Shown here: positions 28,814 through 58,325 of the stretch, in pieces | How the letters are laid out: every line of letters starts with the position of its first letter | Position numbering within the stretch: the stretch's first letter is position 1 | Assembly: GCF_000022065.1 (NCBI RefSeq) | Contig: NC_011898.1 | Location: forward strand, 3,475,501 to 3,539,500 | DNA: 64,000 nt | Origin: Ruminiclostridium cellulolyticum H10 | GTDB lineage: Bacteria > Bacillota > Clostridia > Acetivibrionales > DSM-1351 | Direction of reading: 5' to 3' | Position numbers and translations under genes: made by a program | Notes under the pieces: generated by a model | Databases searched by the model: none | Told to the model about the DNA's origin: nothing | What the model saw: the letters and a program-made list of their open reading frames with translations, nothing else

Positions 28814-29314
28814 TTAAGTTCTTGTGTAATTTGAAGTATGTATAATTTCTGCCATATCCTTTAATTGTTCAAATAACTCTTTATAAATATTAAATGTTGA
28901 TTCATATAAATCATAATTATGGATAATTGCTTTATCTACTTCATATGTATCTTTCAGATTCCCCATATACCATTCTTCACATAAATCACTTTTTTTAATT
29001 GTATAAACTTGGTCTAACAAAACTACACTATCTTTATCTAAAAAAGAATTATCCGTTTGAAAAATTGGTGCGTTACATGGATATTTTAATTGACCATTTG
29101 GGGTTTCTTCACAATGCTCTCTTCCAGTAATAGGAGAGACTGTAACTCTTTGAGAAGATGCTCTATATTGACTTATTATTACACATGGTCTAGCCTTTGT
29201 TGAACTAATAGCAGTGTCAGAATTTCGAGTATTATCAAACCAATGTACACACCCTTTTTCCAAATGTTCTTCTTTTATGCTAGTAGGAGTCTGTGGTTTA
29301 ATTGGACAAGGCAT
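28814..29314 (-). CDS. PemK/MazF-like toxin of the prophage
   Basis: 166 residues. A MazF-fold core is recognisable: HWFDNTR near the start in place of GDIxxVD, then STKARPCVIISQY, VTVSPIT and SVVLLDQVYTIKKSDL. An extra C-terminal helix (about 130-160) is not in standard MazF. It starts three bases after the upstream 82-codon gene, so the two form a pair. Predicted ribonuclease; sequence is far from the chromosomal MazF at 7413. Confidence 0.75.
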   Translation of the reverse strand: MPCPIKPQTPTSIKEEHLEKGCVHWFDNTRNSDTAISSTKARPCVIISQYRASSQRVTVSPITGREHCEETPNGQLKYPCNAPIFQTDNSFLDKDSVVLLDQVYTIKKSDLCEEWYMGNLKDTYEVDKAIIHNYDLYESTFNIYKELFEQLKDMAEIIHTSNYTRT

Positions 29315-38429: not shown

Positions 38430-39722
38430 TGTCCTGAACGGTACTTGGGTTGACACTCCTCTGGGAAATATTAAGTTTTGTTTATTCGGCACTTCCAATA
38501 TGGAGGTGCCTTTCTATGTCAAACCGGCGCCTGGTCTGATATCTTTTTTGCCCTCATCGCCGGGCGGGCTAGACCCTACAAATTAACTCGCAGGATCATT
38601 CAGGAGCTTCTCTCGGGCAAGAGGCAAGCTGTCAAGAAATGTCTGCATCGGCGTCTTGCCTTTACACCTTTTCCCCTGATGTGTTCGCTCTTCGTTGTAT
38701 TCCAGCATATAAAAATCCAAATCCTCCTGCATTTGTTCAACTGATTTATACATTGTCCTTCGGAATGCGGGTTTATAAAATTCATTCAGAATTGTTTGGT
38801 TAAAACGCTCGCATATACCGTTTGTTTGAGGGCTTTTAGCCTTTGTCATTGTGTGCTCAATGTCGTTCATCTGCAGAAATAACTCATACAAGTGTTTCTC
38901 AGGTGCTCCACAGTACTCCGTTCCTCTGTCTGTGAGTACTCTCATTATCGGTATCATATGATTCTCAAAGAACGGTAAGACTCTGTCATTTAATATATCT
39001 GCTGCTGTTACTGGTACCTTGGCTGTATATAATTTTGCGAATCCCACTGCCGAATAAGTATCTATGGCAGTTTGCTGATATATACGTCCAACACCTTTGA
39101 TATAGCCCACATAGAAAGTGTCCTGTGCCAGCAAATATCCCGGGTGCTGGGTATCTATCTCGTCTATGGATATATTCTTTTCCTGCTGTGCCTTTTCCAG
39201 AGCAGCGAGCTGATCTTCAGTGTAAAGTATGCCTTCCTTGGCAGCCTTTTCTTCAAGCTTTTTGAGTCTCTTGTCAAAGGTTTCTATATTATATCTCTGC
39301 CAGATTGATCTTACCCCTCCGGCTGATACAAGAACTCCTTGTTTTCTCAGTTCGTTACTTGCCCTGAGCTGCCCGTATGCCGGCTTTTCATATGCTATTC
39401 TTAATACGGCTTCCTCAGTTTCTGGAGCAACCCTGTTTTTCATACAAGGCTTTCTTCTGGTCTTGTCCTTTAATCCTTCCAGACCATTTTCCTCGTAAGC
39501 TTTCTTAATATCATAGAAGTGCTGTCTGCTGACTCCATGAATTTTACATGCTTCACTTACGTTTTGAAGATATTCGGCCAACTCAATCAGGCTCATTTTG
39601 TTTTTAACTATACGATCTTGTGCTGTCATAATTGAAATCTCCTCCTACAATTTAATTATTGTCCAGAGGAGATATTGCCCAACATTATTCAGATACTGTC
39701 AAGTGAAGTCAATTCTCTAGCA
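38430..39722 (-). mobile_element. IS481-family element, copy 1 (no target duplication)
   Basis: 1,293 bp, ends TGTCCTGAACGG and TCTCTAGCA. Coding content is the same as in copies 2 and 3. Flanks are CATTATG (left) and GTTATAG (right), which do not match, unlike the 7-bp duplications of the other two copies. It joins the terminase start to the end of the polymerase-like gene, so it probably marks a deletion between two former copies. Confidence 0.92.
38583..39629 (-). CDS. IS481-family DDE transposase (copy 1)
   Basis: 348 residues. N-terminal helix-turn-helix (about 15-60, CKIHGVSRQHFYDIKKAYEE), then an rve core with the DDE triad in LAQDTFYVG, RVLTDRGTEYCG and NGICERFNQT. The amino-acid sequence is the same as at 51164 and 54665, which indicates recent spread. 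Confidence 0.93.
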   Translation of the reverse strand: MTAQDRIVKNKMSLIELAEYLQNVSEACKIHGVSRQHFYDIKKAYEENGLEGLKDKTRRKPCMKNRVAPETEEAVLRIAYEKPAYGQLRASNELRKQGVLVSAGGVRSIWQRYNIETFDKRLKKLEEKAAKEGILYTEDQLAALEKAQQEKNISIDEIDTQHPGYLLAQDTFYVGYIKGVGRIYQQTAIDTYSAVGFAKLYTAKVPVTAADILNDRVLPFFENHMIPIMRVLTDRGTEYCGAPEKHLYELFLQMNDIEHTMTKAKSPQTNGICERFNQTILNEFYKPAFRRTMYKSVEQMQEDLDFYMLEYNEERTHQGKRCKGKTPMQTFLDSLPLAREKLLNDPAS

Positions 39723-41909
39723 GTTATAGATATTACTTAGTATCAATGCTCCGACATTAGTAACTTCACCTATTAATCTCTGGCTCTGTGATAATTTCGT
39801 GTCAATATGTGACATCCCAGTATTATTAATTGGATATGTTGTCTTTTCCATTCCGATACTCTTATCATCCTTCTCTACAGGAAAATATTTACCGATTACT
39901 TTAGCCTTAATTTCGCTCTGCAATGTGCCGAAATCAAAAATAACGGCACTATCTGAATCATAGTCGCAAGAATTTAAAATAGCCTGAATTGGGTATTTTA
40001 TTGCATTGCATACTACAATGTTTTTACTTAGCTTGAAATAATCCTTGAGCAGCTGCACATCTGTCTTTAGTATTCCAACATTAATATTTGATGGCGAATT
40101 GTGGGGGTTGCGGAACATACAATATTCCTTACCATGTTCCAAAAATAAGGTCGTATAAATTTCATTATCTTCAAGTACATCTTTATAACTTTCATCAATA
40201 ATACCATCTACTACAGGTAAATCACCAACAGCATGTTTGAGTAAACATAACGGATTCCCAAGCAAAATGCAATAGTCCCCTTTTTGTCTTAGTTTGGCAC
40301 TCTTTACATATTTACCATACCTACTGATTTCATCAGTCCTATAATCCTTAAACATACCTGTTTTCTCAACTAAGTTATTATGTTTATATAGGTCTATCAT
40401 CATATTGTTGTAATTCATTACGTTTGCTTCTGATTGCAAGTATTTAATGTAAGATTCCGTATTGTTTTTTAGGTCAGATATGTAGCCTTTTTCGATTTCA
40501 AGTAAAGATTGTATGTTGTCAGGCGATAAATCAATTGACCCTATCATTTGATAAGACATCTGTTGCAGAATATTACCATCTTTATCGTAGCCACGCTTAC
40601 TCTCTTTTTCATGCTTGACAACAGCAAAAATACATTCTTCTCCCTGCACCTTTTGTTGCCAATACTTGTACATATCCTCATCAGAACCAATTAGTTTGCT
40701 AAATTTCAATGCTTTGAGAGAGGTAGGGCAAAAGATGATTTTTATATCCTTTGCAAAAACTCTATTTTGGAACATATCTAGTATCTGCCAGTCCTCATAC
40801 TCTATACCCTTTATATTCTTTTTATGATACTCTATTAAATATTTTTGGATATAGGTAGCAAATCCTGCGGATTTAAACATATGCTGTCGTAGTAGTAACA
40901 TTGATTCATTTTCTTTAAAATAATCTGATTCAGCATCTAACAAACACTCTCCGTCAAACAATGATGATTCTATTTCCCAATTTTCTTCTACTTCTGAATA
41001 TAGATGCCCAGTAGTACTATCTTTCTTAGTAACATTACATTTAGTAGTAAATACAGATTTGACATCACTGACAATTAACATTGATTTTGTAGGAATAGTA
41101 ATAAATCTTTCCGCTGAGCTTCCTACTAAAAATTCGTAACTTAACAATGCAGGAAAATCTATTTTACTGTCCTTATTAATAGGTAATTTCATTCGCATCC
41201 AATCTAAGATTGGCTTTTTCAATGATTGTTTAATAAATAGTACATTCCCCGTCCTACTCTTTGAGCTACTTCTCCCCAGGACACAATATGTAGTATTGAC
41301 AGTTTTTCTTTCTTGTCCTCTTTTTTTAATAGTCTTTGTAAGTGTAAATCCATCCTCATATAGAATAGTTCTAATATTTTTATTGTTATCACTAACCTCA
41401 ATATTCTTAATTTCATTCCAACTTTCAGGATGTTCTACCATATCCTCTTTGATAAAAGAAACGAATTCAGTTAAAGAAATTATATATGCCATAGTATTAT
41501 AAGATTTCTTTTGAGTTTTCTTAATTTTCTTTTTCTTAAAGAAATCTTTAACTTTATACTTATTGGCAATATCTACTCCTTCAGATATCATCAAAGAATT
41601 TAACTTTTCAAATTCATCTTGAGGCATTGCCTTATCCATCAATTCAATAATCTTATTATTGGTGTCCTTTATAATCTCATCTGCACACTTAACCTTTTTG
41701 TCAAAGCTTACATTAATAATGTCATCAGTAATATATTTCTTGCCATTCTTCTTCTCTTGGATTACCATTCCCTCAGAGATTAGTTTTTGTGAGAGTAAAC
41801 TAAAAGGTAACATTCCAACATATTTTTCCTGTAAATCTTGACTTCTATATATATTGCTATAAATATCACTTGCTTCCAGACTTCTAATGTATATATTTTT
41901 ATTTTCCAT
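39717..41909 (-). CDS. RdRP/YonO-like (double-psi barrel) RNA-polymerase-type protein, 3'-truncated
   Basis: About 730 residues from ATG 41909 (GGAGGAG upstream). The C-terminal third resembles cores of single-subunit RNA polymerases of the YonO/eukaryotic-RdRP clan: LLGNPLCLL, then YCMFRNPHNSPSNI (compare the RxPxxxPGDI block), then NSCDYDSDSAVIFD, an aspartate triad D649-x-D651-x-D653 like the metal-binding DxDGD loop. The N-terminal half is Lys/Glu-rich and unassigned. The gene ends where IS481 copy 1 begins: TGCTAG of the IS supplies the last Cys and stop codon, 71 residues after the triad. Relatives run on much further, so the bridge-helix/trigger-loop part is probably missing. Family assignment is from motifs alone. 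Confidence 0.55.
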   Translation of the reverse strand: MENKNIYIRSLEASDIYSNIYRSQDLQEKYVGMLPFSLLSQKLISEGMVIQEKKNGKKYITDDIINVSFDKKVKCADEIIKDTNNKIIELMDKAMPQDEFEKLNSLMISEGVDIANKYKVKDFFKKKKIKKTQKKSYNTMAYIISLTEFVSFIKEDMVEHPESWNEIKNIEVSDNNKNIRTILYEDGFTLTKTIKKRGQERKTVNTTYCVLGRSSSKSRTGNVLFIKQSLKKPILDWMRMKLPINKDSKIDFPALLSYEFLVGSSAERFITIPTKSMLIVSDVKSVFTTKCNVTKKDSTTGHLYSEVEENWEIESSLFDGECLLDAESDYFKENESMLLLRQHMFKSAGFATYIQKYLIEYHKKNIKGIEYEDWQILDMFQNRVFAKDIKIIFCPTSLKALKFSKLIGSDEDMYKYWQQKVQGEECIFAVVKHEKESKRGYDKDGNILQQMSYQMIGSIDLSPDNIQSLLEIEKGYISDLKNNTESYIKYLQSEANVMNYNNMMIDLYKHNNLVEKTGMFKDYRTDEISRYGKYVKSAKLRQKGDYCILLGNPLCLLKHAVGDLPVVDGIIDESYKDVLEDNEIYTTLFLEHGKEYCMFRNPHNSPSNINVGILKTDVQLLKDYFKLSKNIVVCNAIKYPIQAILNSCDYDSDSAVIFDFGTLQSEIKAKVIGKYFPVEKDDKSIGMEKTTYPINNTGMSHIDTKLSQSQRLIGEVTNVGALILSNIYNC

Positions 41910-41995
41910 GAAATTCATCTCCTCCATTTTATCACACGATTGTTAATAATGTTTTCTGCCGGTTGGCAGGGGTGAAGTAATATCACCCCCTGTGG

Positions 41996-43393
41996 TTATA
42001 GCCCCGAAGCTTTGTCTTTAAAATAATCCAAACTTTCATTATCCATTTGGTCATCAATTAGATCATCACTATCAAATCCTTCTGGGTCTTGTTTAGAACG
42101 AATATGCTTTGTAAGGCTAGACTTTTTCTGTGTTGAAATATTGATTCTACCTCTAGACTTAACTTTTATGATTTCATCTTCAGTAGGCATTTCGATTATT
42201 TCCTCTATTGGATACTCAAACATTGTATAATCTTCCATTGGGTTGCTTTCTCCCCAGGTATTATTAACATTATCTGTAGCATCCTGTATAGTCTCTTCAT
42301 CTTCATAAGCTCTATCTGCTTTAGCTTCATAACCCATTTCCTCATATACTTCAGAGAGTTTTTTATCAGGATTATCTTTTTTCAACTTTTCTTCTTCCAG
42401 TTTGCGAACATCAACATTATCATCATATTGCCATTTTTCTCTCTGGCGTTTTAGTTTTAATAGTTCTTTCTTTTGTGATTGAGTTAAAGATTTTCCATCA
42501 GATTGTAACTTCTCAAGCATATGGATTTTTTGAGTAATTGACCTCTTTTCATCAGCAGAGACTTCTTTCACCTTAGAAATGAAACTCCATCCGTCTTTGC
42601 GTTTATTACTCTTATACTGACTGATACTATTTTCAAGTTCAATTTCCCAACCAGGTCGAAATAAAGTATATGTAAAATTAGCTTTTCTTCTTATTGGTTT
42701 CTGACCTTCTAACTTGAATATCATATCTCCTGCACAATCTTTTCTAATTAAATCCATTTCTTCTAAAGTAGTAATATATAATGCCAAAGTCTTATCAGAC
42801 TCTATAAAAATATCTTCTTTTATAGTTTCATATGTTGGATAGCATACTTCAGGAACTCTCTCAGAAATATGAATATCTGATGAACTTCTTTTCATTCTGC
42901 TTTTCAGATTACAAAACAAGTTTAATAAATTATATTTGTTTAAATCTCCTGAATAATTTATTAACTTATTCCATTCTGAATCATTGAGCTGAAAATAATT
43001 TTGAACCTGTCCATTTTCATTGTATTCGTAGATGTTTAATTTGAAAACAATATAGTCATCAAAATTCAAATTATTTATGTCATTGCATGGAATGTTATTT
43101 ATAGAGATAATTTCTATTAATTTATCCTTAACCAAAGCTGATATAAACTCATTGAGATATTTTCTCTCACGATAAATATTTTTATCAATGCCAAGAGTTT
43201 TTAATAAAAAATTTATACTTATATTTACCTGAGACTTTTTGTTTTGTAGCATAAGCATCTGTCTTATGTATGCTAACGATTTTCTACCATATAACTGAAT
43301 ATAACTGTTTATGGTAGTACTATTTTGAACAACTATATTAGGTATCATAATATAGCTATCTTCTAAAACTATTTTATTACTATTTTCTTCCAA
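41996..43393 (-). CDS. Replication-initiator-like winged-helix protein
   Basis: About 465 residues. The N-terminal 200 (YGRKSLAYIRQMLMLQNKK, LLKTLGIDKNIYRERKYLNEFI, VKDKLIEII) have the helical, wing-bearing look of plasmid or phage Rep proteins. The middle is Lys/Arg-rich coiled coil (KRSITQKIHMLEKLQSDG) and the last 100 residues are acidic and probably disordered. GGGAGG at about 43401-43406 is spaced for TTG 43393. It lies upstream of the polymerase-like gene in the same operon and downstream of an iteron-like tract. The Rep role is inferred. Confidence 0.5.
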   Translation of the reverse strand: MEENSNKIVLEDSYIMIPNIVVQNSTTINSYIQLYGRKSLAYIRQMLMLQNKKSQVNISINFLLKTLGIDKNIYRERKYLNEFISALVKDKLIEIISINNIPCNDINNLNFDDYIVFKLNIYEYNENGQVQNYFQLNDSEWNKLINYSGDLNKYNLLNLFCNLKSRMKRSSSDIHISERVPEVCYPTYETIKEDIFIESDKTLALYITTLEEMDLIRKDCAGDMIFKLEGQKPIRRKANFTYTLFRPGWEIELENSISQYKSNKRKDGWSFISKVKEVSADEKRSITQKIHMLEKLQSDGKSLTQSQKKELLKLKRQREKWQYDDNVDVRKLEEEKLKKDNPDKKLSEVYEEMGYEAKADRAYEDEETIQDATDNVNNTWGESNPMEDYTMFEYPIEEIIEMPTEDEIIKVKSRGRINISTQKKSSLTKHIRSKQDPEGFDSDDLIDDQMDNESLDYFKDKASGL

Positions 43394-43408
43394 ATTGTAT
43401 CCTCCCAT

Positions 43409-43860
43409 TTTTTGTAAGGTATATTTAAGTTTTAAATTTTGAATAAGAAAGTTAAGTCAAAAAATATGAATTGAAATCAAGAAGTTAAAACAAGAAAAGA
43501 AATCACATAAACAAAAAAAGAAAATGTTGCTTGCGTGATTTATCATGCAAGAATAATTACTTATTCTTATTTTGTTATTAATTATTCAATCTTATTATTT
43601 AATTATTTTAATTTTGTTATATATTATTCTTATCTTGTTACACTTATATGGAGTGCAATTTTCTATCTGCAACTTTTATTTTTTTATAACTTAGTGTTAG
43701 AATTCTTACTTTAGAAAAAATATTTATTTGACTTGGGGTTAAAATTTCAACTTTATGTTATAAAATATATTGAGCAAAAGTTGAATTTTTAACTTTCGCC
43801 AAAACACTTCCTAGTAGCAAGGGTTTTAGAGATTATAAATGTTTTTTACTTCAAAACAAA
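43409..43860. other. Possible replication origin / Rep operator: AT-rich repeats and inverted repeat
   Basis: 452 bases without a gene. A tract at about 43560-43640 has three similar 16-17-mers: TATTCTTATTTTGTTA, TTATTTTAATTTTGTTA and TATTCTTATCTTGTTA. Further on, GTTAAAATTTCAACTTT pairs with AAAGTTGAATTTTTAAC across about 22 bases (roughly 43738-43794). Repeats next to a Rep-like gene are what an origin or autoregulatory region would show; function is not proven. Confidence 0.4.
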
Positions 43861-44016
43861 ATGAAATTGCTTATTTGTAACCGGCTCGTCGGAACATTAT
43901 TCCGGCCACGTCTCAATCTGTTACTATCACCACCAGACCCAACCACTTACCCCACTGTCCATGCTCTATCTGACTCTTCGACCACTTGCTTGGAGTGCAA
44001 GAGGTCTGTATTAGGT
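43861..44016. ncRNA. GC-richer, structured non-coding stretch
   Basis: About 150 bases clearly richer in G+C than their surroundings, with no conserved frame. A ten-pair hairpin (GACCACTTGC 43980-43989 with GCAAGAGGTC 43997-44006) and a smaller CGGAA/TTCCG hairpin lie inside. It ends at the stop of the ADP-ribosyltransferase-like gene. Candidate structured RNA or DNA site; matches no class I know. Confidence 0.35.
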
Positions 44017-44589
44017 CTACGCTATTTTAAACTCATCCGAAGAAATCAGCATTAAATACTTATATCTAACAATAACCTCGGATTCATCCCTGCCATTATA
44101 GTAGCCTATCACATCATTTATTTTGACTTTTGCAGAATATACATAGCCCACATTATCACCAAATAAGAATCTTCTAGCAAACCACTCGGCACGATCTTTA
44201 TCTAAGCTCCAAGATAAAGCCTTATTAACTGGTGTTGACTTTGTACATTCACCACGATATATTGTTATATATCCTTTATCATCTGCATATTTGCTTAGTT
44301 CTTGAATTACACTATCTGGTCTTAATTTCTTTAAAGCGTCCAATATCTTTATAGTCAATGCTTTAAAGTTATATTCTGCACGAGTATATACATTAAAAAA
44401 CGCCTTATATTTAATATCATCAGGCAAATATTGAAATACATCTTTATATGCTTGAATAACATCACGTTTATGAATTGCAAAGAACATACCCTTTAAATCA
44501 TTTTTTACATACAGTTCTCTAAAATTATCTTCATCATAGTATGTATAATACTTTAATAGATAGAAAATAATTGGTTGTAACTGATCCAT
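44017..44589 (-). CDS. Small R-S-E-type ADP-ribosyltransferase-like protein
   Basis: 190 residues. The C-terminal 85 carry the three marks of arginine-type mono-ADP-ribosyltransferases: Arg112 in ITIYRGE, the S-x-S of ALSWSLDKDRAEWFA (Ser126, Ser128) and the E-x-E of DESEVIV (Glu169, Glu171). Spacing and the aromatic-rich strand after S-x-S suit the fold. The N-terminal 100 residues are helical and unassigned. No signal peptide, so it would act in the cytoplasm. Phages such as T4 use similar enzymes on host RNA polymerase; the target here is unknown. No clear antitoxin lies beside it. Confidence 0.6.
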   Translation of the reverse strand: MDQLQPIIFYLLKYYTYYDEDNFRELYVKNDLKGMFFAIHKRDVIQAYKDVFQYLPDDIKYKAFFNVYTRAEYNFKALTIKILDALKKLRPDSVIQELSKYADDKGYITIYRGECTKSTPVNKALSWSLDKDRAEWFARRFLFGDNVGYVYSAKVKINDVIGYYNGRDESEVIVRYKYLMLISSDEFKIA

Positions 44590-45263
44590 CTATTCTTCTC
44601 CCTTCATTCAAATTTTGGTTTTGCAATAACGGAGATACCATCCCCTCCATGCACAATATGTTGTTGCCAAAGTACATAATTTCAGTCCATAGAAAAAGGC
44701 ACAAAAAAATCAGTCTTCTTCTAAATTACTGGAAGATAAACTGCCTTTTATGCCTTGGTCTTGCTTATGCATTTTAAGCCCCTATCATGTCCAGTCGGTA
44801 CTAGGACAAGAGTGGAGCTATGCTATATAAAACTTACTTAAAAAATAAGCTATAGAATCACATAGTTATACTATTGTTTTGTCCTAGCACCGGAGTCTTA
44901 CTCCTATCATATTAAACAACCTCCTCTTGGATTTACTGCTTTAATCATCATAAAACAAAAAATTTATTGACAATATTTCTTTTTCTTGATATTATTAATA
45001 CTGACAATATGAAATAGTACACTTTACTTTAAATTAGCAAACCAAGTTATTAAGTAATTGTTAAAGCTATATAATCATGATACACCTTTTGGAATAGTTT
45101 GTCAAGAGGTTGTTTTTATGGTCTTTTTTTATTTGTCAAAGAACATTTGATTCCACCTAAGCATTATTTATCAAACAATTTTGCTCTGTCAAGTATTTTA
45201 AAGAAATTTTTATAATTTCCTTTTTCGAGTTTATTTTAATGTTCCCAATACCGTTGGGAATCT
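44590..45263. other. Large non-coding region with nested inverted repeats
   Basis: 674 bases without a supportable gene. At 44797-44891 a 13-bp outer stem (GGTACTAGGACAA / TTGTCCTAGCACC) encloses a second nested set of complementary pieces (CTATG/CATAG, CTATA/TATAG, CTTA/TAAG), and GGAG-N5-CTCC follows. On RNA this would form one long branched hairpin of about 100 nt. The rest is AT-rich and featureless. Confidence 0.45.
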
Positions 45264-45872
45264 TTAATAAATAAATTCCCTAACAGTTTCCCTATATAAC
45301 TGCCTGTGAGCCATCTTCTTACCTTTTGGTACTAGTATTGTCTGAATACTCATTTTAGCAGGAGTATTGCTACACTTTGTAAATTCTTCAATGTGGAACT
45401 TGGCATCGGTGAATCCTGCGATATCCTTTAGTTTATTTAATTTTTCTAATACTATTTGGGCATATTCTTTTGTTGGATACCTCAAGATACTGTTGATTTC
45501 TGTGCTGAAGCTTGTTAGCCACCATTCCAGCTGTTTACTATCATCGTTTGGTAAAAGGAATATACAGTTTGCATCAACAAAGCGGTTGTTTTGGTCTTTG
45601 ATAACGAAACACGTTGGTTTAGTTATTGGTTCAGATTTAATTGTAAAAACGTGATTTAGGTTTCCACATTTATTATGTAATTTCAAATTATCTAGAGCCT
45701 TTTGTGCTGCATCCATTGAAGGATATGCTCTCTCAGGTCTCGGGTATGAGGTATATGTATACTCCTCCCCTATTTTTTTGATTGAATCTGCATGTACGAA
45801 TTGGCTCGATTCATCCATTATGTAGTACCTAGTATTGGTTTCCTCATTTACATTCCGATTTGTGTTAAGCAT
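45264..45872 (-). CDS. Protein built of two copies of one unknown domain
   Basis: About 202 residues with an internal duplication. Copy 1 (about 15-70) reads RYYIMDESSQFVHADSI and ends YPSMDAAQKALDNLKL; copy 2 (about 90-155) reads TCFVIKDQNNRFVDANCI and ends YPTKEYAQIVLEKLNKL. AAAGGGG is spaced for ATG 45872 (a TTG two codons earlier is too close). It is the first gene leftward from the divergent prophage switch, so it is expected to be under repressor control. Function unknown. Confidence 0.65.
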   Translation of the reverse strand: MLNTNRNVNEETNTRYYIMDESSQFVHADSIKKIGEEYTYTSYPRPERAYPSMDAAQKALDNLKLHNKCGNLNHVFTIKSEPITKPTCFVIKDQNNRFVDANCIFLLPNDDSKQLEWWLTSFSTEINSILRYPTKEYAQIVLEKLNKLKDIAGFTDAKFHIEEFTKCSNTPAKMSIQTILVPKGKKMAHRQLYRETVREFIY

Positions 45873-45925
45873 TTGCAAAACCCCTTTCGTTTTTGGTTAT
45901 GTCTCACTTGTTTTACTATGGTTTC

Positions 45926-46010
45926 ATTATACACTCTACAGTGTAATGCGTCAACACTTTATTAAATATTTTTACACTATATTGAATAAATAGTTTTATC
46001 AATGTATAAT
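45926..46010. promoter_or_regulatory. Divergent prophage switch: two back-to-back promoters with TACACT operators
   Basis: Leftward: TTGACG (45949-45954 on minus), 17 bases, TATAAT (45926-45931). Its spacer holds the palindrome TACACTCTACAGTGTA (45930-45945). Rightward: TTGAAT (45982-45987), 17 bases, TATAAT (46005-46010), with a TACACT half-site just before the -35 (45973-45978). The layout is that of a lysogeny-type control region in which a repressor blocks the leftward promoter. Confidence 0.75.
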
Positions 46011-46030
46011 AATCAAGTGGAGGTGAGCAA

Positions 46031-46246
46031 ATGAATATAAGAAATGAAATCAAATCATACATTGCTTCAAGTGGCTGGACTCTTACTGATATAGTTAAAA
46101 TAATGAATGATAAATATGAATTAGGAACTACTACTCAAAATATATCTAATAAATTAACAAGAGGTACAATAAAATACACAGAATGTAAAATAATAGCCCA
46201 AATTATCGGGTATAGCATTTCTTGGGAAAAGGAAAAAGAAGGGTGA
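46031..46246 (+). CDS. Small helix-turn-helix regulator (candidate prophage repressor)
   Basis: 71 residues, a single HTH domain: GWTLTDIVKIMNDKYELGTTTQNISNKLTRGTIKYTECKIIAQIIGY. Similar single-domain XRE-like proteins act as phage repressors. GGAGGTGA precedes ATG 46031 and a near-consensus promoter lies upstream. The adjacent TACACT palindrome is its most likely binding site. It probably shares a transcript with the 534-residue fusion gene. Confidence 0.75.
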   Translation: MNIRNEIKSYIASSGWTLTDIVKIMNDKYELGTTTQNISNKLTRGTIKYTECKIIAQIIGYSISWEKEKEG

Positions 46247-46368
46247 TTGCTCAAACTCTTCTTTTCCTTGCAAAATATACCACTCATATTTTTCTATAAA
46301 ATTATAAAAATAATCACCATAAGTAAACATTTTTACAAAAAATAATTTTATTCAAAGGAGAGGTTGGT

Positions 46369-47973
46369 ATGGATATATCAGAATTTAAAAAGTATCTTGC
46401 TGATACGAAAATTATATTGAGGGATTTAGGATATCCAAATATTAAAAACATCAGTGAAGAAGATACGAAAATTAAAATTATTAAGCCTTTACTATATCTA
46501 CTAGGCTATGATGAGTCATCTATGCGTCACGAAGAACAAGATGGTTTATCTCAAAATAGAATTGATATCTCATATTTTTATTCCAAGGCATTTGGCTCTA
46601 TTGATTACAAGATACCTATTGAAGCTAAAAATATATATTGTCCATTAAATAGGAATGATACTATAAGTTTTTTAAAGAAATATATGATTGATAAATACCC
46701 TTCTATTGGTATTTTAACTAATGGCAATATTTATAAGCTATTTGTTAAACCATTTAATAATTATTACAATGAATTAGAACTATACTCCGTGAATATAGAT
46801 ATATTTTCTATTGATTTAACTAATGATAATTCAATATGTGAAATATATAATTCTATATGTTTATTCTCAACAGATTTTATTATCAATTCCCCTAAACTAA
46901 TTTATATAAAGGTTTTATCTGACTTTTTATCATACAAAAAAAATCATTGTAAGAGTACAAATCCCTACGATACATTGAAAGCATATAAAGAAGAGATCGA
47001 GTGTTTTATTAATTTTGTTATTAATAAGTACCCTGACCTTAATTTTTCGGAAATAACAAACTTCCATGTAAGAGAATTTGGTTCCTATAGATTATCACTT
47101 GAAAAGAGAAAAGGATTTATAAATGATTCCAATAGACTAAAAACCGTGCTTAATTATATTTCATCATTTTTAAAATTCTGTAATCGGGAAAAAGCATTTG
47201 GATACAACAATCCAGAAATAAATGATATAGCAATACAAAAACTAGCTGAAGAAATATTTATAAAAAATAGAGGTATAAATCCTTCAACATCATCAATAGA
47301 GAATTCTCCCTTAACCCTTGATGAAATCAAACAAATAATTTCATATTGTAAAGAACGTATTATTTCGTCTAAACCTAAAAGCCTGGAATATTATTACGTT
47401 GCATTACGGAATTATATACTAATAATTCTTCCATTATTTCTTGGGTGGAAGAAAAATGAAATAATTAATATCAAATGGAAAGATATCAACTTAAGTGAGA
47501 ATTATATTATTACACCAAGTAATAAATATAAGCTAAATAGTTTTTTAATTAATGAACTTAAAAACTATAAACTTGTATACGACAAATATTATAAAGAAAA
47601 TACATTTAGAGTAAATGATAAATATTTATTCTTAACTTCTAGAAAATACTATGGAAAAAAGGGCATGAATGTCGTAGGCGTTCGTACACTTAATTACAAT
47701 TTAAGAATAACCCTAAAAAACTCAGGTCTGCCCGAGGAAAGAATAAATAAGATTACTATCGAAAGTCTAAAAAATACTAATATTGCATTATCATTAAATG
47801 AAATAAAAAACACATTTGCAATAATACTGAATACGGTAAAACCTAAAACTCTAGTTTATGACCTAAAAAATATGCTTCATGATCTAGGATATGACGTTGA
47901 TAGTCTAATTTATTCATCTATTGATTACCACCCTCTTAATAAATTAGAACCAATACTTGGTACAGAATATTGA
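46369..47973 (+). CDS. HsdR-N-type PD-(D/E)xK nuclease fused to a degenerate tyrosine-recombinase fold
   Basis: 534 residues. Residues 1-145 match the HSDR_N nuclease domain: EEDTKIKIIKPLLYLLGYD, Asp66 in NRIDISYFY, Glu85-x-Lys87 in PIEAKN, then IGILTNGNIYKLF. Residues 195-290 look like a SAM-like core-binding domain, and 315-490 like an integrase catalytic domain (LTLDEIKQII, FLGWKKNEIINIKWKDINL). The tyrosine-recombinase residues are replaced: Lys361 for the first Arg, EsLKN (465-469) for HxxRH, and no clear nucleophilic Tyr. Thus it can probably bind DNA but not recombine. AAGGAG precedes the ATG. Phage-borne, next to the repressor; function unknown, with defence or replication control possible. 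Confidence 0.6.
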   Translation: MDISEFKKYLADTKIILRDLGYPNIKNISEEDTKIKIIKPLLYLLGYDESSMRHEEQDGLSQNRIDISYFYSKAFGSIDYKIPIEAKNIYCPLNRNDTISFLKKYMIDKYPSIGILTNGNIYKLFVKPFNNYYNELELYSVNIDIFSIDLTNDNSICEIYNSICLFSTDFIINSPKLIYIKVLSDFLSYKKNHCKSTNPYDTLKAYKEEIECFINFVINKYPDLNFSEITNFHVREFGSYRLSLEKRKGFINDSNRLKTVLNYISSFLKFCNREKAFGYNNPEINDIAIQKLAEEIFIKNRGINPSTSSIENSPLTLDEIKQIISYCKERIISSKPKSLEYYYVALRNYILIILPLFLGWKKNEIINIKWKDINLSENYIITPSNKYKLNSFLINELKNYKLVYDKYYKENTFRVNDKYLFLTSRKYYGKKGMNVVGVRTLNYNLRITLKNSGLPEERINKITIESLKNTNIALSLNEIKNTFAIILNTVKPKTLVYDLKNMLHDLGYDVDSLIYSSIDYHPLNKLEPILGTEY

Positions 47974-48024
47974 AGCCCAACTTGTCAATTTTTTATTGAT
48001 TTATACTATTATATAAAGGAATCA

Positions 48025-48048
48025 TGACCACCCGTTTTAAGGTGGTCA
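48025..48048 (+). terminator. Terminator after the nuclease-recombinase fusion gene
   Basis: TGACCACC pairs with GGTGGTCA over an eight-base loop, then AATTATTT. Confidence 0.7.
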
Positions 48049-48168
48049 ATTATTTCGCATGGCTCATTTTATTCGAGAAACTAGCCTCATGCTCAACAAG
48101 CTAAAGACCACAACTGAAAAATACCCTCTTGATCGAAAGGCGTTGGATTCTTACTTATGTATATTAAG

Positions 48169-48242
48169 TTATTTTCTTAAATATTTTTCGTCTTTAATAA
48201 ATCTTAAAAAAGCTTCTAAATTGCTTTCTAATTCAGCTAAAC
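48169..48242 (-). pseudogene. 3' part of a small gene split by IS66
   Basis: Encodes the end (LAELESNLEAFLRFIKDEKY then LRK) of a 55-residue protein whose 5' part lies at 50738-50840. Removing the IS66 element and one copy of its 8-bp duplication restores one open frame. Confidence 0.75.
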
Positions 48243-48376
48243 GTAAGCGCTTAATCTTGGGGTGCATAGTAGTTTATCCATCTGTATGAGATAATCCTTT
48301 CAAATTGTCTTTAGACTTTTTAAAGTTTTTCGACTTTGTCTAAAAAGTCTGAAATCACCAAGGAGGCTATCCCCAA

Positions 48377-48715
48377 ATGGATAAAATAACAGATACTAAA
48401 ACTGAATTTAGACTCAAGCAGTGGACTCAGATAGTCCAGACGTGCCAAGCCAGTGGAATGACGGCTGTCAGTTGGTGTAATCAGAACAATGTAAATATCA
48501 AATCATATTACTATTGGTTACGCAGAATCCGCACTCTGACTATCGAAAATGGACCTCTTGAGCTTCAAAGTAAAGGACAGCAGATTGTACCCGTATCTTT
48601 CCGGCAGACAGCAGCAGTTACAATTCATATTAATTCCGTTTCTATAGATATCCCTGATGGAACTTCCAAAGATACAATTGCGGCAGTTCTGTCGGCATTG
48701 AAGACCATATGTTAG
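48377..48715 (+). CDS. tnpA: IS66 accessory protein TnpA
   Basis: 112 residues with an N-terminal HTH (FRLKQWTQIVQTCQASGMTA, VSWCNQNNVNIKSYYYWLRR), the signature of IS66 OrfA proteins needed for transposition. Overlaps tnpB by seven bases. Confidence 0.93.
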   Translation: MDKITDTKTEFRLKQWTQIVQTCQASGMTAVSWCNQNNVNIKSYYYWLRRIRTLTIENGPLELQSKGQQIVPVSFRQTAAVTIHINSVSIDIPDGTSKDTIAAVLSALKTIC

Positions 48716-49065
48716 GCGATATTTCAAAAGCAGAAGACATTTACATTGTATGTGGTTACTCTGATATGCGCAAGTCAATCGACGGATTCGCCGCCATCAT
48801 AAAGGGAACTTTTGGTATGGATCCGTTTTCACCGAGCCTGTTTTTGTTCTGCGGTAAAAGAAGGGATCGGTTAAAAGCTCTCTATTGGGAAGGGGACGGT
48901 TTTGTCCTGCTGTACAAGCGTCTGGAGAACGGGAGCTTCAAATGGCCTCGGACACCAGAGCAGGCAAGACGTCTTACAATGCAGGAATTTCGGTGGCTTA
49001 TGGATGGCTTGGCTATTGATCAACCTAAGGCAATCCGGGAAGCGAAACAGGGTGATATCTATTGA
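48709..49065 (+). CDS. tnpB: IS66 accessory protein TnpB (IS66 Orf2)
   Basis: 118 residues, closely matching TnpB of IS66: YIVCGYSDMRKSIDGFAAII, LFLFCGKRRDRLKALYWEGDG, FKWPRTPEQARRLTMQEFRW. Translationally coupled to tnpA. Confidence 0.95.
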   Translation: MLGDISKAEDIYIVCGYSDMRKSIDGFAAIIKGTFGMDPFSPSLFLFCGKRRDRLKALYWEGDGFVLLYKRLENGSFKWPRTPEQARRLTMQEFRWLMDGLAIDQPKAIREAKQGDIY

Positions 49066-49140
49066 TAAAAAGTGCTGAAAAGTGTGGGTTCTACTGTATT
49101 TTAGTTGGAATTTTCAGTCCAATAATGGTATAATTAACTT

Positions 49141-50730
49141 ATGCAAAAGATTGATATTACAGGGCTTTCGCCCAATCAAATTGAATATGTTTCCTCTTTG
49201 GAAAAAACAGTAGAAAACCAGCAAGTTCGTATTGAACAACTTACTGAGCTTCTTATTAAATCTCAAAAAGCTTTATATGGTCAATCCAGCGAAAAGCGGC
49301 GTTATGTTTTTGATGAAGACAGCGGTCAGCTTTCCTTATTCAATGAGGCAGAGGTCGAAGCTGGCAACAAGGCAGAAGAACCGACCGTGCAGACAATTGT
49401 GGCAGCACATACCAGAAAACCCAAGCGAACCAAGGAAGAACTGGCAGAAACGGTACCAGTGGTGGAAGTCGTTTGTGATCTGGATAAAGATAAACGCACC
49501 TGTAACATTTGCAACACTGATCTGAGATATCTCGGAAAGGAATATGTCCGGGACGAACTGGAGATTATCCCTGCCCAGGTACGCATATTGAGATATATTC
49601 GTTTAAATTATGTATGCAAGGAATGTGAGAAGGAGACCTGCGAAGCCAATATTGTTAAAGCTCCTGTCCCAAAACCTGTTATGAAGCGCAGCCTTGCTTC
49701 TGCCTCAACCGTAGCTTATGTAATGTATCAAAAATATGCAAATGGAATGCCTTTATACCGACAGGAAAAAGACTGGGCGAACCAAGGAGTGAAACTCTCC
49801 AGAGCTACTCTGGCCAATTGGATTATACGTCCAAGTCATGAATGGCTTGAACCAATGTATGATGCTATTAAGAAAAATCTGGTGACCGAACCGTTGATAC
49901 ATGCGGACGAAACCGTCCTGCAGGTATTGAAAGAACCGGGACGGAGAGCAACCACCGAATCTCGAATGTGGGTCTACACTTCCGGTCAAAGTCTGACTCC
50001 GGCGGTTTTGTTTGAATACCAGCCGACACGATCCGGTCAGCATGCCAGACGGTTTCTGGAAGGGTTTTCGGGTTATCTTCAAACAGATGGCTATAGTGGT
50101 TACAATGCAGTACCTAATGTCATACATTGTGGATGTTGGGCTCATTTACAGCGTAAATTTGAAGAAGCAATTCCTAATGGAGCAGATAACAAAAGCTCCA
50201 AGGCGGCTATTGGATATGATTACTGTAACCGCTTATTTGCCATGGAAAAGAAATGGATAGAATTATCCTCTGAAAATCGGCACCAAGAACGGCGAAAAAA
50301 TGCAAAACCTCTTCTTGATGAGTTCTGGCAATGGGTATCGCATTTAAATCCTCTCCAAAACTCAAATCTGGGAAAAGCAGTTACCTATGCGTTGAATCAA
50401 AAGGAAACTCTGATTAATTTTATGCTGGATGGGTGCATCGAAATTTCCAATAACCGTGCTGAAAATGCCATCAGGCCTTATGTCACAGGTCGGAAGAACT
50501 GGCTCTTTGCCGACACGACCCGTGGAGCCAAAGCCAGTGCCATTGTATACAGTATGATCGAATCAGCTAAAGCAAATCAACTCAATCCATATATGTATTT
50601 GGTGTATCTACTGTCAAAATTACCGGACTTGAAAGAATTAACGCAGAAATCTCTGACACCTTATCTGCCATGGTCACCCGAATTGCCATGCTGGTGTCAT
50701 AAAGATTCAAACAAGGCACCCCAAGATTAA
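49141..50730 (+). CDS. tnpC: IS66 transposase TnpC (DDE)
   Basis: 529 residues: N-terminal leucine-zipper coiled coil (LEKTVENQQVRIEQLTELL), the RRYVFDEDSGQLSLFNEAE segment, a zinc-finger region (CDLDKDKRTCNICNTDL), and a DDE core (LIHADETVLQVL, LQTDGYSGYN, NNRAENAIRPYVTGRKNWLF). Full length. Confidence 0.95.
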   Translation: MQKIDITGLSPNQIEYVSSLEKTVENQQVRIEQLTELLIKSQKALYGQSSEKRRYVFDEDSGQLSLFNEAEVEAGNKAEEPTVQTIVAAHTRKPKRTKEELAETVPVVEVVCDLDKDKRTCNICNTDLRYLGKEYVRDELEIIPAQVRILRYIRLNYVCKECEKETCEANIVKAPVPKPVMKRSLASASTVAYVMYQKYANGMPLYRQEKDWANQGVKLSRATLANWIIRPSHEWLEPMYDAIKKNLVTEPLIHADETVLQVLKEPGRRATTESRMWVYTSGQSLTPAVLFEYQPTRSGQHARRFLEGFSGYLQTDGYSGYNAVPNVIHCGCWAHLQRKFEEAIPNGADNKSSKAAIGYDYCNRLFAMEKKWIELSSENRHQERRKNAKPLLDEFWQWVSHLNPLQNSNLGKAVTYALNQKETLINFMLDGCIEISNNRAENAIRPYVTGRKNWLFADTTRGAKASAIVYSMIESAKANQLNPYMYLVYLLSKLPDLKELTQKSLTPYLPWSPELPCWCHKDSNKAPQD

Positions 50731-50737
50731 GCGCTTA

Positions 50738-50840
50738 CAGCTAAACTATGTACATCTATTTCCTCATTGCAATCTTTCAAGTCTTGAGTCATAAAAATAA
50801 TATTGGTCTTTAAGTTTACTATTTTTTGATTAATGTTCAT
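50738..50840 (-). pseudogene. 5' part of a small gene split by IS66
   Basis: From ATG 50840: MNINQKIVNLKTNIIFMTQD and then DLKDCNEEIDVHS to the IS end; it continues at 48242. The whole is a short helical protein of unknown function, third in a leftward chain of small prophage genes. Broken by the IS. Confidence 0.75.
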
Positions 50841-51010: not shown

Positions 51011-52303
51011 TGTCCTGAACGGTACTTGGGTTGACACTCCTCTGGGAAATATTAAGTTTTGTTTATTCGGCACTTCCAATATGGAGGTGCCTTTCTATGT
51101 CAAACCGGCGCCTGGTCTGATATCTTTTTTGCCCTCATCGCCGGGCGGGCTAGACCCTACAAATTAACTCGCAGGATCATTCAGGAGCTTCTCTCGGGCA
51201 AGAGGCAAGCTGTCAAGAAATGTCTGCATCGGCGTCTTGCCTTTACACCTTTTCCCCTGATGTGTTCGCTCTTCGTTGTATTCCAGCATATAAAAATCCA
51301 AATCCTCCTGCATTTGTTCAACTGATTTATACATTGTCCTTCGGAATGCGGGTTTATAAAATTCATTCAGAATTGTTTGGTTAAAACGCTCGCATATACC
51401 GTTTGTTTGAGGGCTTTTAGCCTTTGTCATTGTGTGCTCAATGTCGTTCATCTGCAGAAATAACTCATACAAGTGTTTCTCAGGTGCTCCACAGTACTCC
51501 GTTCCTCTGTCTGTGAGTACTCTCATTATCGGTATCATATGATTCTCAAAGAACGGTAAGACTCTGTCATTTAATATATCTGCTGCTGTTACTGGTACCT
51601 TGGCTGTATATAATTTTGCGAATCCCACTGCCGAATAAGTATCTATGGCAGTTTGCTGATATATACGTCCAACACCTTTGATATAGCCCACATAGAAAGT
51701 GTCCTGTGCCAGCAAATATCCCGGGTGCTGGGTATCTATCTCGTCTATGGATATATTCTTTTCCTGCTGTGCCTTTTCCAGAGCAGCGAGCTGATCTTCA
51801 GTGTAAAGTATGCCTTCCTTGGCAGCCTTTTCTTCAAGCTTTTTGAGTCTCTTGTCAAAGGTTTCTATATTATATCTCTGCCAGATTGATCTTACCCCTC
51901 CGGCTGATACAAGAACTCCTTGTTTTCTCAGTTCGTTACTTGCCCTGAGCTGCCCGTATGCCGGCTTTTCATATGCTATTCTTAATACGGCTTCCTCAGT
52001 TTCTGGAGCAACCCTGTTTTTCATACAAGGCTTTCTTCTGGTCTTGTCCTTTAATCCTTCCAGACCATTTTCCTCGTAAGCTTTCTTAATATCATAGAAG
52101 TGCTGTCTGCTGACTCCATGAATTTTACATGCTTCACTTACGTTTTGAAGATATTCGGCCAACTCAATCAGGCTCATTTTGTTTTTAACTATACGATCTT
52201 GTGCTGTCATAATTGAAATCTCCTCCTACAATTTAATTATTGTCCAGAGGAGATATTGCCCAACATTATTCAGATACTGTCAAGTGAAGTCAATTCTCTA
52301 GCA
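51011..52303 (-). mobile_element. IS481-family element, copy 2
   Basis: 1,293 bp with the same ends as copy 1, and a clean 7-bp target duplication ATTTATG (51004-51010 and 52304-52310). A simple transposition event into a small gene. Confidence 0.95.
51164..52210 (-). CDS. IS481-family DDE transposase (copy 2)
   Basis: 348 residues, same protein as copies 1 and 3 with an intact HTH and DDE triad. It is oriented leftward, like copy 1. Confidence 0.93.
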   Translation of the reverse strand: MTAQDRIVKNKMSLIELAEYLQNVSEACKIHGVSRQHFYDIKKAYEENGLEGLKDKTRRKPCMKNRVAPETEEAVLRIAYEKPAYGQLRASNELRKQGVLVSAGGVRSIWQRYNIETFDKRLKKLEEKAAKEGILYTEDQLAALEKAQQEKNISIDEIDTQHPGYLLAQDTFYVGYIKGVGRIYQQTAIDTYSAVGFAKLYTAKVPVTAADILNDRVLPFFENHMIPIMRVLTDRGTEYCGAPEKHLYELFLQMNDIEHTMTKAKSPQTNGICERFNQTILNEFYKPAFRRTMYKSVEQMQEDLDFYMLEYNEERTHQGKRCKGKTPMQTFLDSLPLAREKLLNDPAS

Positions 52304-54571: not shown

Positions 54572-55864
54572 TGCTAGAGAATTGACTTCACTTGACAGTA
54601 TCTGAATAATGTTGGGCAATATCTCCTCTGGACAATAATTAAATTGTAGGAGGAGATTTCAATTATGACAGCACAAGATCGTATAGTTAAAAACAAAATG
54701 AGCCTGATTGAGTTGGCCGAATATCTTCAAAACGTAAGTGAAGCATGTAAAATTCATGGAGTCAGCAGACAGCACTTCTATGATATTAAGAAAGCTTACG
54801 AGGAAAATGGTCTGGAAGGATTAAAGGACAAGACCAGAAGAAAGCCTTGTATGAAAAACAGGGTTGCTCCAGAAACTGAGGAAGCCGTATTAAGAATAGC
54901 ATATGAAAAGCCGGCATACGGGCAGCTCAGGGCAAGTAACGAACTGAGAAAACAAGGAGTTCTTGTATCAGCCGGAGGGGTAAGATCAATCTGGCAGAGA
55001 TATAATATAGAAACCTTTGACAAGAGACTCAAAAAGCTTGAAGAAAAGGCTGCCAAGGAAGGCATACTTTACACTGAAGATCAGCTCGCTGCTCTGGAAA
55101 AGGCACAGCAGGAAAAGAATATATCCATAGACGAGATAGATACCCAGCACCCGGGATATTTGCTGGCACAGGACACTTTCTATGTGGGCTATATCAAAGG
55201 TGTTGGACGTATATATCAGCAAACTGCCATAGATACTTATTCGGCAGTGGGATTCGCAAAATTATATACAGCCAAGGTACCAGTAACAGCAGCAGATATA
55301 TTAAATGACAGAGTCTTACCGTTCTTTGAGAATCATATGATACCGATAATGAGAGTACTCACAGACAGAGGAACGGAGTACTGTGGAGCACCTGAGAAAC
55401 ACTTGTATGAGTTATTTCTGCAGATGAACGACATTGAGCACACAATGACAAAGGCTAAAAGCCCTCAAACAAACGGTATATGCGAGCGTTTTAACCAAAC
55501 AATTCTGAATGAATTTTATAAACCCGCATTCCGAAGGACAATGTATAAATCAGTTGAACAAATGCAGGAGGATTTGGATTTTTATATGCTGGAATACAAC
55601 GAAGAGCGAACACATCAGGGGAAAAGGTGTAAAGGCAAGACGCCGATGCAGACATTTCTTGACAGCTTGCCTCTTGCCCGAGAGAAGCTCCTGAATGATC
55701 CTGCGAGTTAATTTGTAGGGTCTAGCCCGCCCGGCGATGAGGGCAAAAAAGATATCAGACCAGGCGCCGGTTTGACATAGAAAGGCACCTCCATATTGGA
55801 AGTGCCGAATAAACAAAACTTAATATTTCCCAGAGGAGTGTCAACCCAAGTACCGTTCAGGACA
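54572..55864 (+). mobile_element. IS481-family element, copy 3 (inverted)
   Basis: 1,293 bp, opposite in orientation to copies 1 and 2, with a 7-bp target duplication CCTCTAT (54565-54571 and 55865-55871). Recombination with copies 1 or 2 could invert the DNA between them. Confidence 0.95.
54665..55711 (+). CDS. IS481-family DDE transposase (copy 3)
   Basis: 348 residues, the same protein as copies 1 and 2, reading rightward. GGAGGAG lies upstream of ATG 54665. Confidence 0.93.
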   Translation: MTAQDRIVKNKMSLIELAEYLQNVSEACKIHGVSRQHFYDIKKAYEENGLEGLKDKTRRKPCMKNRVAPETEEAVLRIAYEKPAYGQLRASNELRKQGVLVSAGGVRSIWQRYNIETFDKRLKKLEEKAAKEGILYTEDQLAALEKAQQEKNISIDEIDTQHPGYLLAQDTFYVGYIKGVGRIYQQTAIDTYSAVGFAKLYTAKVPVTAADILNDRVLPFFENHMIPIMRVLTDRGTEYCGAPEKHLYELFLQMNDIEHTMTKAKSPQTNGICERFNQTILNEFYKPAFRRTMYKSVEQMQEDLDFYMLEYNEERTHQGKRCKGKTPMQTFLDSLPLAREKLLNDPAS

Positions 55865-55924: not shown

Positions 55925-56218
55925 TTATAGTGGAAGCCATTCTCTTATGGCTTTTAAACCTTTATAGGTTTTAGATAACGCACTATTACTTTTTAAATAA
56001 TTTAATCCTTCAAAAGTAATTTGTGAATTCTCAAATGCCACTCTAGGGTCTAATGTAAATCTTACGCCTTTCAATAATCCGGCATCTCTTATCATTATTG
56101 AAATATCCCAAAATAGGTCAAACTCTATATCGTAATCTTCATGTGTTAAGTTTTTATTACCCGATTCTACCTCTTTAAGTATGCTGTATATTATTTTTTC
56201 TCTTTTTGATATGCTCAT
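55925..56218 (-). CDS. YjcQ-like phage protein
   Basis: 97 residues from ATG 56218 (AGGAGTGA upstream): MSISKREKIIYSILKEVESG, then ITFEGLNYLKSNSALSKTY and KGLKAIREWLPL. The start and the FEGLxYLxxNS block match YjcQ-family winged-helix-like proteins common in Firmicute phages. Function not established. Third gene of the promoter at 57078. Confidence 0.75.
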   Translation of the reverse strand: MSISKREKIIYSILKEVESGNKNLTHEDYDIEFDLFWDISIMIRDAGLLKGVRFTLDPRVAFENSQITFEGLNYLKSNSALSKTYKGLKAIREWLPL

Positions 56219-56240
56219 AGAATCACTCCTATAAAAAATT

Positions 56241-56783
56241 TTATAAGTATCCACCAACAGAATAATTAGGATTAACTTGCAATAATTCAGGATGTTTATT
56301 TAAATAGTTCCAAGCCCAAGGCTGAATGTTATAAGATATTTTAAAATCCATATTGATAATATTAGAAGATCTGTATAGGATTTTGTAATATATAAGTTCA
56401 TTAACTACTCCATTACTATATGATAATCTCTGTGTTCTAGTTTGGTAATCAATATAATAAGATAAGATTTTTTTCTCTTCATATGTTAAATTTTCCAACC
56501 GCTCTTCTCTTTCACTTATTTTAAACTTTACTTTAGATTTTAACTTTCGTTTCTTTAACAAAATAACACTAATATCAGTAATCCAAAATCCAAAAGAAAT
56601 TAAAAATCCTATTCCTATCCATATCCTATATTTTGATATAAATAATTGTATCCCTAAACTATTTATGATATATTCTGGAGAAAATAATAATATCCCTGAT
56701 ATTAAACTTATAGCAAAAAGGTATCTTGGTGATTTAAAACAATTTATAAGTTTTGTAATTATATCAATATTTGTATCTGCCAT
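56241..56783 (-). CDS. SieB-like superinfection-exclusion membrane protein
   Basis: 180 residues. Two N-terminal membrane helices (about 22-45 and 53-76: YLFAISLISGILLFSPEYII and IWIGIGFLISFGFWI), a basic stretch, then a cytoplasmic winged-helix-like domain (YEEKKILSYYIDYQTRT, YNIQPWAWNYLNKHPELL). This is the SieB-family layout; P22 SieB aborts infection by other phages. GAGGGG sets ATG 56783. It overlaps the stop of the upstream gene. Confidence 0.75.
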   Translation of the reverse strand: MADTNIDIITKLINCFKSPRYLFAISLISGILLFSPEYIINSLGIQLFISKYRIWIGIGFLISFGFWITDISVILLKKRKLKSKVKFKISEREERLENLTYEEKKILSYYIDYQTRTQRLSYSNGVVNELIYYKILYRSSNIINMDFKISYNIQPWAWNYLNKHPELLQVNPNYSVGGYL

Positions 56784-56791
56784 ATTTCCCC

Positions 56792-57046
56792 TCACCTGTT
56801 TTTATGTTTCTTCAGATTATACGCTACAACAAATAAACTATATTTCCCATCAGGCTGCTTTGTTATCCTTATAGAAAAATCTCCATGTTTTCTAGTTCCA
56901 TTAATGTAATATGTGCCATATTCATCATCACTTAGCGTGATAGGTAATCCAGAGCTATTAACACTTCCTAAGTCATAGTATCTAACAATTTCATGTTCAA
57001 TTGTGCTATACCCTAAATCATCAATTTTTGTACACAAGCATTCCAT
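56792..57046 (-). CDS. Hypothetical 84-residue prophage protein
   Basis: Beta-rich small protein (EIVRYYDLGSVNSSGLPITL, DFSIRITKQPDGKYSLFVVA). First gene of the operon with SieB and YjcQ-like genes; its stop overlaps the SieB leader. GGGGGTC precedes ATG 57046. No family recognised. Confidence 0.65.
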   Translation of the reverse strand: MECLCTKIDDLGYSTIEHEIVRYYDLGSVNSSGLPITLSDDEYGTYYINGTRKHGDFSIRITKQPDGKYSLFVVAYNLKKHKNR

Positions 57047-58252: not shown

Positions 58253-58325
58253 ATTCTTAAAACTTTGGCGTCCCGGACAGGAATCGAACCCGTATCAGTG
58301 GAACCGGAATCCACCGTCTTATCCA
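58253..58325. other. Right attachment site within the intact tRNA-Arg
   Basis: 73 bases identical to 27186-27258. Crossing-over restored the tRNA 3' part, so the host gene stays functional. Confidence 0.92.

Follow-up and report, generated by a model that had tools for sequence, protein, structure and literature searches.

The genome of Ruminiclostridium cellulolyticum H10 is a single contig of 4,068,724 bases, of which positions 3475501-3539500 form the 64,000-nucleotide stretch analysed here (the window; coordinates below count from its first base unless another contig is named). A prophage occupies 27186-58325, flanked by 73-bp perfect repeats in two tRNA-Arg copies (27186-27258 and 58253-58325) and containing holin, capsid, protease, portal and terminase genes, and its lysogeny arm carries a gene in which an HsdR-type nuclease domain is joined to a tyrosine recombinase-like region. 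ORF calling confirmed the coordinates that the initial annotation gave for this gene, as well as its strand, and the locus is laid out as follows.

38583-39629, 51164-52210 and 54665-55711: three 348-aa transposase genes, identical by eye and IS481-like by our own reading
45931..45978, no strand assigned: four operator-like ACACT/AGTGT half-sites in the divergent promoter region
46031..46246, + strand: 71-aa small HTH-like protein, a putative repressor, 122 bp upstream of the fusion gene and co-directional with it
AAAGGAGAGG, + strand, immediately 5' of the fusion gene: ribosome-binding-site-like, from reading of the upstream sequence
46369..47973, + strand: fusion gene, 534 aa, a real and intact ORF by ORF calling
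48025..48048, no strand assigned: terminator-like hairpin 3' of the fusion gene, scored on both strands
48243-50738: IS66 with an 8-bp target duplication, which starts past the fusion gene and leaves it untouched
56241-56795, - strand: SieB superinfection exclusion protein of the same prophage (PF14163, 3.9e-44)
57174-58097: the prophage's own full-length integrase (PF00589, 2e-29), with Y-S-L-R at the HxxR position

The fusion gene shares its strand with the HTH-like gene, and the adjacent early genes and the head and tail genes run the opposite way. The co-direction with a repressor that was initially annotated is therefore borne out in position and strand, with weak matches of the 71-aa protein to Clr5 (0.0042) and to the phrog_3 repressor (0.028). 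The four ACACT/AGTGT half-sites compare with 0.27 expected per 150 bp at local composition. Promoter-like hexamers occur on both strands of the divergent region in a total that is no excess (29 versus 28.8 in shuffles), and the scan that scored the terminator-like hairpin returned 4 sites in 5 kb versus 2.3 expected. The prophage as a whole is riddled with insertion sequences. Among its other genes, one for a YjcQ-family protein (55925-56257) adjoins the SieB gene, and a protein with a PemK/MazF-like toxin domain (28814-29314, - strand; 1.5e-8) is encoded near the holin and VanY-like genes. A 190-aa protein (44017-44589, - strand) matches phrog_4776, a PHROG of unknown function (5.2e-16), and its YRG, SWS and ESE motifs look to us like those of an R-S-E ADP-ribosyltransferase.

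The N-terminal part of the fusion protein, residues 1-190, has the following features.

46369..46938, + strand: residues 1-190, HSDR_N PD-(D/E)xK domain related to phrog_4225 endonucleases, by HMM and alignment
46456..46461, + strand: E30-E31, unchanged across 23 rows, within S-E-E-D-T-K (the consensus of the relatives reads T-E-E-A-T-K)
46564..46566, + strand: D66, the likelier catalytic Asp, by sequence, alignment and HMM
46603-46605, + strand: D79, the competing catalytic Asp, in a column invariant in 23 rows
46621..46629, + strand: E85-A-K87, the ExK motif, with Glu and Lys unchanged across 23 rows

Searching residues 1-175 against 391 genomes of the class (E up to 0.1) matched 55 genomes, mostly by chance, and yielded nine relatives that stand alone and are about 360 aa long; their alignment led to the window's own locus in IMG/VR and to 22 others. 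An HMM of 22 relatives, built without the window protein, scored it at 30.1 bits versus 5.8 for the best shuffle (500 shuffled copies, 433 reported). Identity to the relatives is 27-35%, with E30, E31, E85 and K87 kept, and in the 23-row alignment E30, E31, D66, D79, E85, K87, L116, T117 and G119 are invariant; a nearly invariant Gln of the relatives, in the column of residue 99, is Ile in the window protein. A direct PHROG match to phrog_4225, labelled 'endonuclease', was obtained at 0.0015, and the Pfam match to HSDR_N_2 was weak (0.096, under the cut-off). Homology to phrog_4225 proteins stops near residue 190, and full-length membership of that family does not hold.

Residues 66, 85 and 87, which had been proposed as the nuclease motif, are indeed D, E and K in the translation, and the two aspartates compete for the catalytic role. 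In the MAFFT alignment the Asp of 'VDY' in the relatives pairs with D79 instead of D66, and in the HMM alignment it pairs with S68, two residues off D66; the Asp-to-Glu distance is 6 with D79 and 19 with D66, versus 14 in the relatives. Judged from the sequences, D66 is probably the more plausible catalytic Asp of the two. An AlphaFold model of this half (23 rows; pLDDT 74.8) has a helix and strand order that fits PD-(D/E)xK, and residues 54-76, D66 included, are poorly modelled. The model found no significant fold match in the PDB (best, the restriction enzyme DrdV, 0.074) or in BFVD (best 0.02), nor was any PDB profile match with alignment A6 significant (best 0.08), and phmmer with the window protein gave no match among PDB sequences.

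HsdR of type I restriction belongs to the same nuclease domain superfamily (HSDR_N, PF04313 / PF13588). Unlike HsdR, the window protein has no helicase motor, since Pfam and NCBIfam scans showed no helicase family and hence no superfamily 2 motor, and the scanned prophage proteins, a set without some of the small ORFs, include neither HsdM nor HsdS, nor any methyltransferase. The host has type I hsdM and hsdR genes of its own, about 235 kb away from the fusion gene. On contig 1 of G000, a tyrosine recombinase gene is found near the host type I hsdM and hsdR (3281106-3287696; L082, L153 and L157), a layout known for invertible specificity genes, and three tandem tyrosine recombinase genes resemble a recombinase trio (78255-81321; L080, L083 and L084).

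The stand-alone relatives share with the window protein the N-terminal HSDR_N domain, with its EE, ExK and LTNG-type motifs, and a location in a prophage's lysogeny arm, but they are some 355-380 aa long and have another C-terminal half, whereas the recombinase-like half of the window protein begins at about residue 176-190. One of them (L093:5935-6999) is a phrog_4225 example at 3e-140. A same-strand integrase gene lies downstream in 12 of the 22 IMG/VR loci; it is upstream at L108, upstream on the other strand at L091, and was not found in the remaining 8, in some of them owing to the end of the contig. Near-copies by look are present among the 22 (L087/L089, L103/L104 and L096-L099). By our own reading, a repressor-like HTH gene is upstream in 12 of the 15 loci for which neighbours were listed, and in some of the loci L087-L108 small lipoprotein-like genes adjoin the endonuclease gene. 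When two stand-alone relatives were compared with PADLOC models, one matched a type IIG restriction-methyltransferase (9.5e-6) and the second DruG only (0.0017). The PHROG category of phrog_4225 is DNA, RNA and nucleotide metabolism, and we know of no tested function for it beyond the label 'endonuclease'.

Downstream of the nuclease domain, the protein resembles tyrosine recombinases until the resemblance gives out in a tail.

46894..47649, + strand: residues 176-427, Xer-like core-binding (SAM-like) domain and first half of the catalytic domain, by HMM, PHROG, NCBIfam, model and tree
47449..47451, + strand: K361, replacing the catalytic Arg-I, by alignment to 14 recombinases
47650..47970, + strand: tail, residues 428-534, where HxxR, His/Trp and Tyr are expected; no recognisable relatives
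47761..47772, + strand: E465-S-L-K468, where the lost HxxR may fall in one register, by our own reading of the translation
47797..47808, + strand: N477-E-I-K480, with N-T-F-A after it, where HxxR may fall in the alternative register, the MAFFT choice
47857..47859, + strand: Tyr497, a possible remnant nucleophile, a role from our own reading
47911..47913, + strand: Tyr515, a possible remnant nucleophile and the MAFFT choice for the nucleophile column

An HMM of 14 recombinases aligned over residues 176-427 at 54.2 bits, versus 8.0 for the best of 484 shuffles reported, which together with the score of the nuclease half supports the claimed joining of an HsdR-N domain to a recombinase-like region. 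Matches were also obtained to PHROG integrases (2.8e-13), to NCBIfam XerA (7.8e-10, yet 38.8 bits against a cut-off of 220) and, weakly and under the cut-off, to Pfam Phage_integrase (0.0029). In the whole-protein AlphaFold model (15 rows), ten-residue block means of pLDDT are 55-93 over residues 181-460, most of which are modelled with confidence, 33-59 from residue 461 onward, and 24-60 before residue 181, where the alignment consists of the window sequence alone. Foldseek placed XerA first among the best PDB matches, followed by XerH, IntI4 and Cre (3.7e-7 to 2e-5); the XerA match at 3.7e-7 has a TM by target of 0.48 and an rmsd of 14.5, a poor superposition attributable to the poor quality of much of the whole-protein model, and the first nine rows span 0.45-0.59 and 6-16. 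A PDB profile search with alignment A2 mostly mirrors the 11 other recombinases in that alignment and was given no evidential weight. Structure prediction, which had been suggested as a check on both halves, thus brought a XerA match for the recombinase half and no significant fold match for the nuclease half.

A 27-row tree places the recombinase half within its Xer-like half (97/97), on a long branch, where it groups weakly with L004, L005 and L007 (83/75; long branches); the prophage's own integrase falls elsewhere in the same Xer-like half and is not paired with it. The frequent proximity of phrog_4225 and integrase genes suggested an origin by fusion of such neighbours, which the tree does not support for the usual neighbour: 10 of the 12 neighbouring integrases included lie outside the Xer-like half (long branches).

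Compared with Xer-like recombinases (XerA, XerD and XerH, and the nearest, L004, L005 and L007), the window protein keeps the core-binding domain and first catalytic half but has Lys at Arg-I, no HxxR, an unrecognisable tail and an added N-terminal nuclease. The G-x-R-x-x-E of the 14 recombinases reads G359-W-K361-K-N-E364, HxxR is absent from the whole protein, and no Arg follows residue 458, so that Arg-II is missing in any register. Neither the HMM of the 14 recombinases nor that of 6 nearest-subfamily members (6 of 17 loci passed the motif filter) reaches past residue 427. By eye, E465-S-L-K468 with Tyr497 fits the tail as well as MAFFT's N477-E-I-K480 with Tyr515, and residues 442-518 have a weak PHROG match to phrog_27588, of unknown function (0.012). 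The initial description of a catalytically dead tyrosine-recombinase fold accordingly needs trimming: the core-binding domain and first catalytic half are recognisable and the resemblance stops near residue 427, and the loss of Arg-I, HxxR and any later Arg stands, while the statement that there is no nucleophile gives way to two candidates, Tyr497 and Tyr515.

No second fusion came to light. In IMG/VR, searches with the whole protein, three pieces of it and the nuclease-half alignment found only a contig with the same gene; none was found in the phages or plasmids searched, or among genome contigs, where one relative (L112) was among the matches listed. The nuclease half alone had no match in phages and, in plasmids, matched 3 haloarchaeal HsdR-N proteins (annotation of 2 examined). 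Genomes of the family (11), order (58), class (391) and phylum (398) yielded none, with one search of the 391 class genomes scoring at most three candidates per genome. The nuclease-half profile gave 21 matches in the class genomes, and the architecture was read for the 12 strong ones, which were 11 stand-alone ORFs (356-384 aa) and the window protein, itself in the profile. The phylum search used PF13588, which misses the window protein in its own genome and would therefore miss equally divergent fusions; the longest ORF was read at ten loci and at three of these (L067, L068 and L073) is a neighbour of the match. The initial annotation knew of no described system of this kind, a statement that holds within word searches of the open-access literature and within PADLOC-DB, where no model matches the whole protein (E up to 10) or residues 1-195 (E up to 1). 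The available portions of PMC4619093 and PMC11318856 do not describe the fusion architecture.

Taken together, we tentatively favour an accessory nuclease of the prophage, made in the lysogen and directed against incoming DNA, with a dead recombinase as its DNA clamp. An HSDR_N PD-(D/E)xK nuclease would have had its C-terminal half replaced by an Xer-like tyrosine recombinase; the recombinase half, unable to break DNA alone, would clamp the DNA for cutting by the nuclease half. By analogy with stand-alone phrog_4225 endonucleases, which other prophages carry in the same region, the likeliest task would be to attack phage or mobile DNA that enters the cell; the position of these relatives lends a protective, anti-phage role indirect support. 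R225 of Tn1549 Int is, we presume, its first catalytic Arg. According to the available portion of PMC5871717, the R225K mutant, an inactive control, complexes with DNA but does not cleave it, so that a Lys-bearing recombinase is plausible as a clamp; like the window protein it has Lys for Arg at a catalytic position, but it is an engineered single change without a nuclease domain. In favour of this explanation we count the two homologies, far over shuffled controls; the kept motif residues, open frame, hairpin and clearance from IS66; the co-direction with the HTH-like gene and the operator-like repeats, the relatives' neighbourhoods and SieB; and the PADLOC matches of stand-alone relatives. 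Against it we count the single sequence, its lack of a PADLOC match and the label-only function of phrog_4225; the missing fold match of the nuclease half, its poor modelling at 54-76 and the Gln-to-Ile change; and the lack of a methyltransferase among the scanned prophage proteins, which leaves the sparing of host DNA unexplained.

The main rival, possible though on balance unlikely, is a chimera in decay: in a prophage riddled with insertion sequences, a phrog_4225-type endonuclease gene and an Xer-like recombinase gene would have fused by accident, and the nuclease may still work while the recombinase half, its selection relaxed, would be a remnant. Under A+T pressure Lys is one step from Arg and Asn one step from His, the tail is an orphan, no other copy of the fusion came up in the searches, an IS66 and three identical transposase genes lie in the prophage, and the GC content of the gene (25.5%, versus 29.6% for 39717-48242, a range that includes it, and 35.1% for the window) is below that of all five other prophage genes compared. 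Decay is harder to reconcile with a frame that stays open for 534 codons where each has a stop probability of 0.09, and with a GC content that drops across the codon positions, from first to third, in each of the three parts examined, the tail included; both point to a coding sequence under recent selection, as far as one sequence can tell. The confident model for most of residues 181-460 and the kept nuclease motif residues also speak against it.

Rather unlikely is a regulator of integration, excision or recombination, whose dead recombinase half would occupy core-type sites of its own or a competing element while the nuclease half cuts or marks them, for attachment-site control and not general phage defence. 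Such a role would suit a recombinase half in the same Xer-like half of the tree as the prophage's integrase, a separate full-length enzyme between the tRNA-Arg repeats that serves integration itself; the recombinase half pairs weakly with other recombinases and not with that integrase, and the core-type binding sites would be putative ones. We find it comparably doubtful that the protein is a nuclease of phage DNA metabolism, acting in replication or host takeover and expressed after induction, not in the lysogen: the PHROG category of phrog_4225 would fit, but the gene runs with the HTH-like gene and opposite the neighbouring early and head and tail genes. A natural site-directed nuclease, in which the disarmed recombinase would read rivals' core sites (att, dif or similar) and the fused PD-(D/E)xK domain would cut them, the resident prophage thereby destroying competing phages or mobile elements at their recombination sites, strikes us as very unlikely. 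A recombinase that is still active through unusual chemistry, using Lys in place of Arg and either Tyr515 or Tyr497 for the nucleophilic attack, has candidate tyrosines, one of them on MAFFT's nucleophile column, and is scarcely credible in a protein with no HxxR and no Arg past 458, given that one Arg-to-Lys change inactivates Tn1549 Int (available portion of PMC5871717).

From its sequence, the fusion protein is likeliest a variant of phrog_4225 with a new, putatively DNA-binding half. If the accessory nuclease is active, it would represent a natural re-use of recombinases as targeting modules for nucleases, the counterpart of engineered dead-enzyme fusions. The family phrog_4225 itself, lying between repressor-like and integrase genes, is a candidate for superinfection control.
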